A DNA stretch of 49,234 nt, taken from Chlorobiota bacterium. GTDB taxonomy: Bacteria; Bacteroidota; Bacteroidia; Bacteroidales; JAADGE01. This document shows, piece by piece, positions 33,208-34,672 of the stretch. The stretch spans positions 1-49,234 of the forward strand of contig JAADDR010000188.1 of assembly GCA_013153865.1 (NCBI GenBank), read 5' to 3'. The position numbers and the translations under genes were made by a program. How positions within the stretch are numbered: the stretch's first letter is position 1; every line of letters starts with the position of its first letter. The notes beneath the pieces were generated by a model. The model was not told the origin of the DNA. It saw nothing but the letters and a program-made list of their open reading frames with translations, and did no database searches.

Positions 33208-33268
33208 CAAAAAAACATCCTTCTTATAACACCTTTATTTTAAACAAAATACGGATACACTTTCATTT

Positions 33269-33380
33269 TAACCCGATTATTCTGAAAGTCGAGTTTCGAA
33301 ATTATCGGGTTAAATCGAAACTTCACTTTAATAATAACCCGATAATTATACAAGAATAATTTGCAAATAACCCGATAATT
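33269..33380 (+). repeat. Array of four TAACCCGATAATT elements (A 33269-33281, B inverted 33300-33312, C 33335-33347, D 33368-33380)
   Basis: Read directly: taacccgattatt, aattatcgggtta (reverse complement), taacccgataatt, taacccgataatt; centre-to-centre spacing 31, 35, 33 bp. Confidence 0.9.
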
Positions 33381-33391
33381 CAGTAAATTTG
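33361..33391 (+). promoter_or_regulatory. Predicted Bacteroidetes-type promoter of the DUF4143 ATPase gene (-33 TTG 33361-33363, -7 TAAATTTG 33384-33391) with repeat D in the spacer
   Basis: TAnnTTTG consensus match with 20-nt spacing to TTG; ATG at 33407. Confidence 0.65.
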
Positions 33392-33406
33392 TAAAAATTT
33401 AAACCT

Positions 33407-34672
33407 ATGGATTCCGATTATATCATAAAACGGAAAATATACGACAAAATAAAAAAACACCTCGACAAAAAAGAAATTACCATAATAAGCGGTATTCGTC
33501 AATGCGGAAAATCGACAATATTGCACAAACTCAGAACAAACCTCATAAAAGAAGGAGAAAAAACAATATTCTTAAATTTCGACTTCGACAAAGACAAAGA
33601 ATTTCTGAAAACACAAGAATCACTTGTAAACAAACTGAAATTTGAATTCGGAAGCAACAAAGGATATGTTTTCATAGACGAAATTCAAAGACGAGAAAAT
33701 GCCGGATTATATCTGAAAGGAATTTACGATCTGAGATTACCTTACAAATTCATCGTATCGGGTTCGGGAAGCGTAGAATTAAAAGAAAAAATTCAAGAAT
33801 CTCTACTCGGAAGAAAACGAGTTTTCGAAATGACACCGGTAAACTTTTCCGAATTTGTAAACTACAAAACAAATTATAAATATTCGGAAAAAATAAACGA
33901 ATACTTCGAATTCGAAAAAGAAAAAACAGAACAATTCCTGAAAGAATATCTGAATTACGGAGGTTTTCCGAGAATTGTAACCGAACGGGAAACAGATGAA
34001 AAAATCGAACTTATAAACGAAATTTACAACAGTTACATAGAAAAAGATTTAATTAATCTTTTAAACATAGGCAAACCCGAACTTTTTAAAGATATCTTCA
34101 AGATGCTGTCATACCTGTCGGGTAAGTTATTAAACCTCACAAACATCTCAAACGATACCGACACATCCGTGCAAACTCTGAAAAAATACCTGTATTTTGC
34201 CGAAAAAACATACTCGCTTACCAAAATAAGACCGTATTTTAACAACATAAGCAAAGAAATTCGCAAAGCACCCGTAATTTATTTTACGGATACCGGAATG
34301 ATGAACTACATAAGCGGTAAATACGGAAATTTAAGCACACCTGCCGACTTCGGTTTTGTTTTTCAAAACTTTATTTTCAATATTCTGAAAGATACAATAC
34401 CTAAAAACCACGAAATAAAATACTGGCGAACAACAGACAAAGCGGAAGTCGATTTTATCATCGACAAAACATCCGGAGTAACGCCGATTGAAGTAAAATA
34501 CAAAAAACTGAAAAAAACAAACATAAGTCGTTCGCTCAGAAGTTTTATAAACAAATACGAACCTCAAAATGCATATATCGTAAACCTGTCGTTAAAATCA
34601 AAAATAAAAATAAACAAAACAACGATTCACTTCATACCTTACACAAAATTATTTTCGATAAAATCACTATAA
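33407..34672 (+). CDS. AAA-family ATPase with C-terminal DUF4143 domain
   Basis: Walker A-like ISGIRQCGKSTILHKL; Walker B-like GYVFIDEIQ; YKFIVSGSGSVELKEKIQESLLGRKRVFEMTPVNFSEF; C-terminal nuclease-like KYWRTTDKAEVDFIIDKTSGVTPIEVKY. Confidence 0.93.
   Translation: MDSDYIIKRKIYDKIKKHLDKKEITIISGIRQCGKSTILHKLRTNLIKEGEKTIFLNFDFDKDKEFLKTQESLVNKLKFEFGSNKGYVFIDEIQRRENAGLYLKGIYDLRLPYKFIVSGSGSVELKEKIQESLLGRKRVFEMTPVNFSEFVNYKTNYKYSEKINEYFEFEKEKTEQFLKEYLNYGGFPRIVTERETDEKIELINEIYNSYIEKDLINLLNIGKPELFKDIFKMLSYLSGKLLNLTNISNDTDTSVQTLKKYLYFAEKTYSLTKIRPYFNNISKEIRKAPVIYFTDTGMMNYISGKYGNLSTPADFGFVFQNFIFNILKDTIPKNHEIKYWRTTDKAEVDFIIDKTSGVTPIEVKYKKLKKTNISRSLRSFINKYEPQNAYIVNLSLKSKIKINKTTIHFIPYTKLFSIKSL

Follow-up and report, generated by a model that had tools for sequence, protein, structure and literature searches.

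The window analysed here is a 49,234-nt stretch (positions 1 to 49,234 of contig JAADDR010000188.1, forward strand) from the genome of a Chlorobiota bacterium (GCA_013153865.1), and the system in question is an ATPase gene of the DUF4143 family (33407-34672, + strand, 421 amino acids) together with a repeat array in its promoter. The array comprises four copies of the 13-mer TAACCCGATAATT, three of them exact and one with a single mismatch: copy A (33269-33281, + strand) reads TAACCCGATTATT and carries the mismatch, copy B (33300-33312, - strand) is exact and inverted, and copies C (33335-33347, + strand) and D (33368-33380, + strand) are exact. Their centres lie 31, 35, and 33 bp apart. Copy D falls within a promoter spacer, between a TTG (33361-33363, + strand) and TAAATTTG (33384-33391, + strand), and starts 16 bp ahead of the latter. 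The primary-sigma promoter consensus of Bacteroidota consists of a TTG -33 element and a TAnnTTTG -7 element; the two sequences flanking copy D are the putative counterparts, the first recognised by its sequence and the second by its sequence and by comparison of promoter register, and would place the transcription start of the ATPase gene at about 33396-33398. An earlier note on this DNA had described the four elements with their positions, strands, and mismatch, the three centre spacings, and the placement of copy D, all of which were borne out on re-reading the sequence. That note had also considered that the 13-mer might occur anywhere in the genome by chance. In the window, three exact 13-mers come together within 125 bp at one place only, against a mean of 0.0 such clusters in 40 windows from a dinucleotide model, and the 12-mer AACCCGATAATT has only four exact occurrences in the whole 2.5-Mb genome, three of them within the array. 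A scan of the full 2.5 Mb for further clusters of the 13-mer returned none, isolated one-mismatch copies being background, so that the array is unique in its genome; likewise, no copy at two or fewer mismatches was found upstream of the genome's other DUF4143 matches.

The encoded protein matches Pfam families PF13173 (AAA_14; 106.3 bits, E value of 1.5e-30, cutoff of 27) and PF13635 (DUF4143; 120.6 bits, E value of 7.1e-35, cutoff of 28.1), and in its AlphaFold2 model (predicted local distance difference test score [pLDDT] of 92.8) an AAA+ core is followed by a helical stretch and a winged helix-turn-helix, with a PD-(D/E)XK-like domain at the C terminus. The winged helix-turn-helix (residues 224 to 295; 34076-34291, + strand), delimited by the secondary structure of the model, is built of helices 224-236, 244-250, and 255-267 plus wing strands and is the likely reader of DNA; the last of these helices is the putative recognition helix (34169-34207, + strand). 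The PD-(D/E)XK-like motif E347-x-D349...E362-V-K364 (34445-34498, + strand) was recognised by its conservation in 67 homologues, in all of which the Walker and PD-(D/E)XK-like residues G29, G34, K35, D91, E92, E347, E362, and K364 are invariant, with D349 kept in at least 90%. By the PADLOC profiles, both the window ATPase (best E value of 7.8e-80) and its short-form relatives (see below) belong to PDC-S01, which that resource lists as a single-gene phage-defence candidate. Structure searches with the model matched Cdc6/Orc1 on origin DNA, RFC, RuvB, and STAND proteins, mainly through the AAA+ core, with weak whole-chain matches (template modelling [TM] score of about 0.3 to 0.4). Searches of solved structures by sequence gave none with the single sequence and only generic ATPases with a profile. 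No Rep initiator domain was found in the protein, for which Pfam gave only AAA_14, DUF4143, and a sub-cutoff nSTAND3 match.

The motif is conserved together with the gene. Among 80 related loci in named genomes, a set in which archaeal members are sparsely sampled, ATPases 40 to 75% identical to that of the window had the same motif upstream at fixed offsets, in the Bacteroidota, Deltaproteobacteria, Nitrospirae, Chloroflexi (Anaerolineales), and candidate phyla radiation (CPR). The orientation and number of copies differ among these homologues and the period of about 33 bp is kept; at one locus (L079), eight copies follow one another every 33 bp exactly. At least six near-identical 33-bp units stand in tandem upstream of another homologue (L051), an array that looks like a recent expansion. 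When 398 genomes were searched with a strict pattern that required two long-form copies, nothing matched; the pattern was too strict, missing even the window's own genome.

The period of about three helical turns extends to far more distant relatives. Repeats were counted as 11-mers with at least 10 identical positions, within -150 to +5. Direct repeats at 33 bp were present in 18 of 67 close homologues, and among 43 distant homologues repeats occurred at 32 bp in 13 and at 33 bp in 6. In a further 80 independent genes, picked from the hit list blind to their promoters, the spacing was 32 bp in 38, 33 bp in 6, and 64 bp in 11, compared with 32 bp in 3 and 33 bp in 1 of 186 control promoters taken from other genes in the same loci; shuffled sequences gave about 0.2. 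Across the distant DUF4143 genes, the repeated sequence itself varies from gene to gene, and what is constant is the spacing. The earlier note had described phasing at about three helical turns in the array and had proposed conservation of the motif upstream of homologous ATPases as a check; the former is a property of the whole family, and the latter holds across phyla and at fixed offsets.

The sites also keep their place relative to the promoter, and do so in promoters of two types. In the Bacteroidota, a site begins 16 bp before TAnnTTTG in six genes, that of the window and those at L050, L053, L079, L086, and L121. Of the non-Bacteroidota long-form genes (the branch that includes the window ATPase) with a good sigma-70-like promoter, 33 of 43 have the operator in the spacer that separates the -35 from the -10 element, for example in TTGACTTtcaaaATTATCGGGCTATAAT. 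In several such homologues (L081, L091, L092, L094, and L119), the -10 element ends about 6 nt ahead of the start codon, and hence their mRNAs should be leaderless. The fitting of one operator to two promoter types points to control of initiation, most simply in the form of repression by occlusion; at the window promoter as well, it is from the position and geometry of the site that we infer repression rather than activation.

Evidence as to which protein reads these sites came from a sister branch of short-form proteins (about 371 to 395 amino acids), whose sites are palindromes of the form x1-x2-G-ATTnnAAT-C-x2'-x1'. Half-sites were called by hand for 42 short-form genes and compared with the 267 protein columns that vary. 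The best predictor is residue 227, which AlphaFold2 models of this branch place second in the recognition helix (226 to 238): it fixes operator base x2 completely (42/42 genes), with mutual information of 1.56 bits and a z score of 15.2, the next best column reaching 7.4. The code runs as follows: K or H with G; N, V, or I with T; Q, E, or D with C; and single cases of G and L, both with C. The pairings of K/H with G, N with T (A on the opposite strand), and E/D with C match the usual contacts between side chains and bases. Two further short-form proteins (L355 and L326) have alanine at residue 227, and the operator of the former, TAGATTATAATCTA, shows an A as base x2, perhaps a further (Ala-A) pairing of the code. 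A first automatic half-site caller had yielded only 16 usable genes and already ranked residue 227 top for x2; the hand calls postdate this hint, yet were made blind to which gene carries which residue. Because the hint came first, the code was put to a hold-out test on new genes, whose operators were called by a fixed automatic procedure with no access to the protein. Its predictions were correct for 19/20 and 12/15 confident calls (31/35 pooled; permutation mean of 13.3 and maximum of 25 in 20,000) and for 36/46 without filtering. The automatic procedure reproduces 36 of the 42 hand calls, and some operators (e.g., L370 and L364) defeat it. On a tree for which the winged-helix columns had been left out, x2 underwent 17 or more changes, and the independent pairs that fall on supported branches all agree with the code (6/6; P = 0.031). 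Since a residue of the ATPase's own recognition helix predicts a base of the operator, the simplest reading is that the short-form ATPase reads its own promoter through its winged helix.

Comparison with relatives indicates how the array and gene came to the window. The ATPase cassette is flanked by genes for an acyltransferase and a glycosyltransferase; in two relatives (G103 of the same genus, locus L350, and G061, locus L351), these flanking genes are adjacent with no ATPase between them, and the empty site of a relative holds no copy of the operator motif. The closest homologues of the ATPase (L050 and L079) have other gene neighbours and lack the window's flanking genes. The empty site in the relatives and the different neighbours of the closest homologues imply that promoter array and gene arrived jointly, as an insert spanning 33208-34672 (+ strand); the two probably form one portable unit passed between genomes. 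The glycosyltransferase ATG (34673) follows immediately after the ATPase stop, and expression of that gene may therefore now depend on the self-regulated promoter. Elsewhere in the same genome (G000), two truncated short-form DUF4143 fragments, on contigs C189 (5211-5531) and C91 (4114-4383) with open frames of 160 and 91 amino acids, respectively, are probably decayed copies.

The features computed directly here, namely, the sites with their period, the fact that they are conserved together with the gene, their place in two promoter types, the empty site, and the short-form code, can be accommodated by a single mechanism. The DUF4143 ATPase would bind repeated sites in its own promoter via its winged helix, with one subunit per site or half-site, and the subunits would sit about three helical turns (31 to 33 bp) apart on a single face of the DNA. 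Occupation of the site between the two promoter elements would exclude RNA polymerase for as long as the ATPase is sufficient, and array and gene would move between genomes as one unit. We put a probability of roughly 0.8 on this reading, in which a portable gene regulates itself with the array as its operator, bound by the DUF4143 ATPase that keeps RNA polymerase out; from the sequence comparisons, the ATPase family very probably controls its own gene.

Several observations weigh against it. Some close homologues have one recognisable site or none. A region-wise Mantel test on 81 genes with repeats was weak. In the long-form branch, the coupling between operator and protein was not enriched in the winged helix (P = 0.94), and Q256, the second position of the window's recognition helix and the residue aligned with short-form residue 227, did not rank high when sites were taken by promoter register. 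Among long-form sites, the core CCCGA shows almost no variation. The window's Q256 and the C at the matching base agree with the Q-C pairing of the code, an agreement that does not amount to a test. That the window ATPase binds its own array is something we infer from homology, from the joint transfer of array and gene, and from the want of any other shared gene. The earlier note had proposed a DNA-binding protein, perhaps the ATPase itself or a cognate regulator; the sister-branch code favours the ATPase itself, although that code is not seen in the window's own branch.

Among the alternatives, the one that survives best, though unlikely, is that a separate transcription factor binds the array. 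It draws on the fact that binding by the ATPase is a prediction and that residue/base coupling is missing from the window's branch. However, in the sister branch the operator base can be predicted from a recognition-helix residue of the ATPase, hold-outs included; ATPase and array form a lone insert, and L050 and L079 do without the window's neighbour genes; and such a regulator would need to have travelled with the gene into many phyla. Less probable still is that the array serves replication, as an iteron-like origin or loading site at which an ORC/Cdc6-like AAA+ winged-helix protein binds repeats beside its own gene, with promoter control secondary. Plasmid Rep proteins bind repeats adjoining their own gene, phased direct repeats do lie upstream of the ATPase, and Cdc6/Orc1 on origin DNA, RFC, and RuvB are among its best structure matches; those whole-chain matches are nonetheless weak and reflect the AAA+ core, the sites fall exactly within promoter spacers of two types, and the insert is a chromosomal one of about 1.5 kb between two conserved genes with no other replication gene. 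We consider it improbable to a slightly greater degree that the array is what the PD-(D/E)XK domain cleaves or targets, as in a homing-like selfish gene marking its own copy: the conserved E347, D349, E362, and K364, the movement of the gene between genomes, and its many paralogues would suit such an element, but the absence of the motif from the relative's empty site means that it is not the insertion target, and site placement follows the promoter and not the ends of the insert. Control at the RNA level, by a hairpin or attenuator in the transcript, is hardly credible despite copies B and C being perfect inverted repeats 22 nt apart, as the last base of the array (33380) precedes the predicted start site, and copy orientation and number vary among homologues while the ~33-bp period is kept.

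An autoregulated DUF4143 operator would bear on a candidate defence family that is reported to be among the most frequent in bacteria and archaea (PMC12988326). The targets and control of its members are almost undescribed. PDC-S01, described as an ATPase fused to PD-(D/E)XK, is reported to rank fourth in frequency among prokaryotic defences, and antiphage activity has been validated experimentally for few such candidates (PMC12988326). The window ATPase, like the short-form proteins, fits the PDC-S01 profiles and has the same ATPase/PD-(D/E)XK fusion; a defence role for them is putative. In the parts of the PDC-S01 literature available to our search, there was no mention of promoter arrays or self-regulation; DUF4143 is named in only one paper of the literature searched, and a search for COG1373/AAA_14 returned only unrelated text matches. 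The promoter arrays give every paralogue a predicted DNA target, which the code would predict from protein sequence, and offer a way to locate the start and control of DUF4143 genes in unannotated genomes. They also suggest how many paralogues might coexist in one cell without cross talk, each reading its own sequence. More speculatively, and in our view doubtfully, DUF4143/PDC-S01 genes could be self-silencing defence or selfish units, in which a phased assembly is parked on its own array until a signal from an invader or nucleotide state releases the ATPase, at once raising expression and unleashing the nuclease-like domain; that ATP or an invader would influence the predicted binding is likewise an extrapolation.

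Genes that control themselves through phased sites are familiar from DnaA, Rep proteins, and antitoxins; for a family-wide three-turn array read by a putative effector ATPase, with one residue specifying one base, no description turned up in the literature searched, subscription papers excepted. DnaA and plasmid Rep/iteron proteins autoregulate through phased sites in their own promoters, and the likeness to the window is close in that an AAA+ or winged-helix protein is involved and inverted as well as direct copies occur. Unlike those systems, the one described here has a three-turn period and a nuclease-like domain, and the array in the ATPase's own promoter is the only one in its genome. 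The autoregulation of toxin-antitoxin and restriction-modification systems, by antitoxins and C proteins (discussed in PMC12255303), is similar in that selfish or defence genes repress or tune their own promoter. There, however, the regulator is a separate small protein or antitoxin, whereas in the window the putative effector itself would read the operator.
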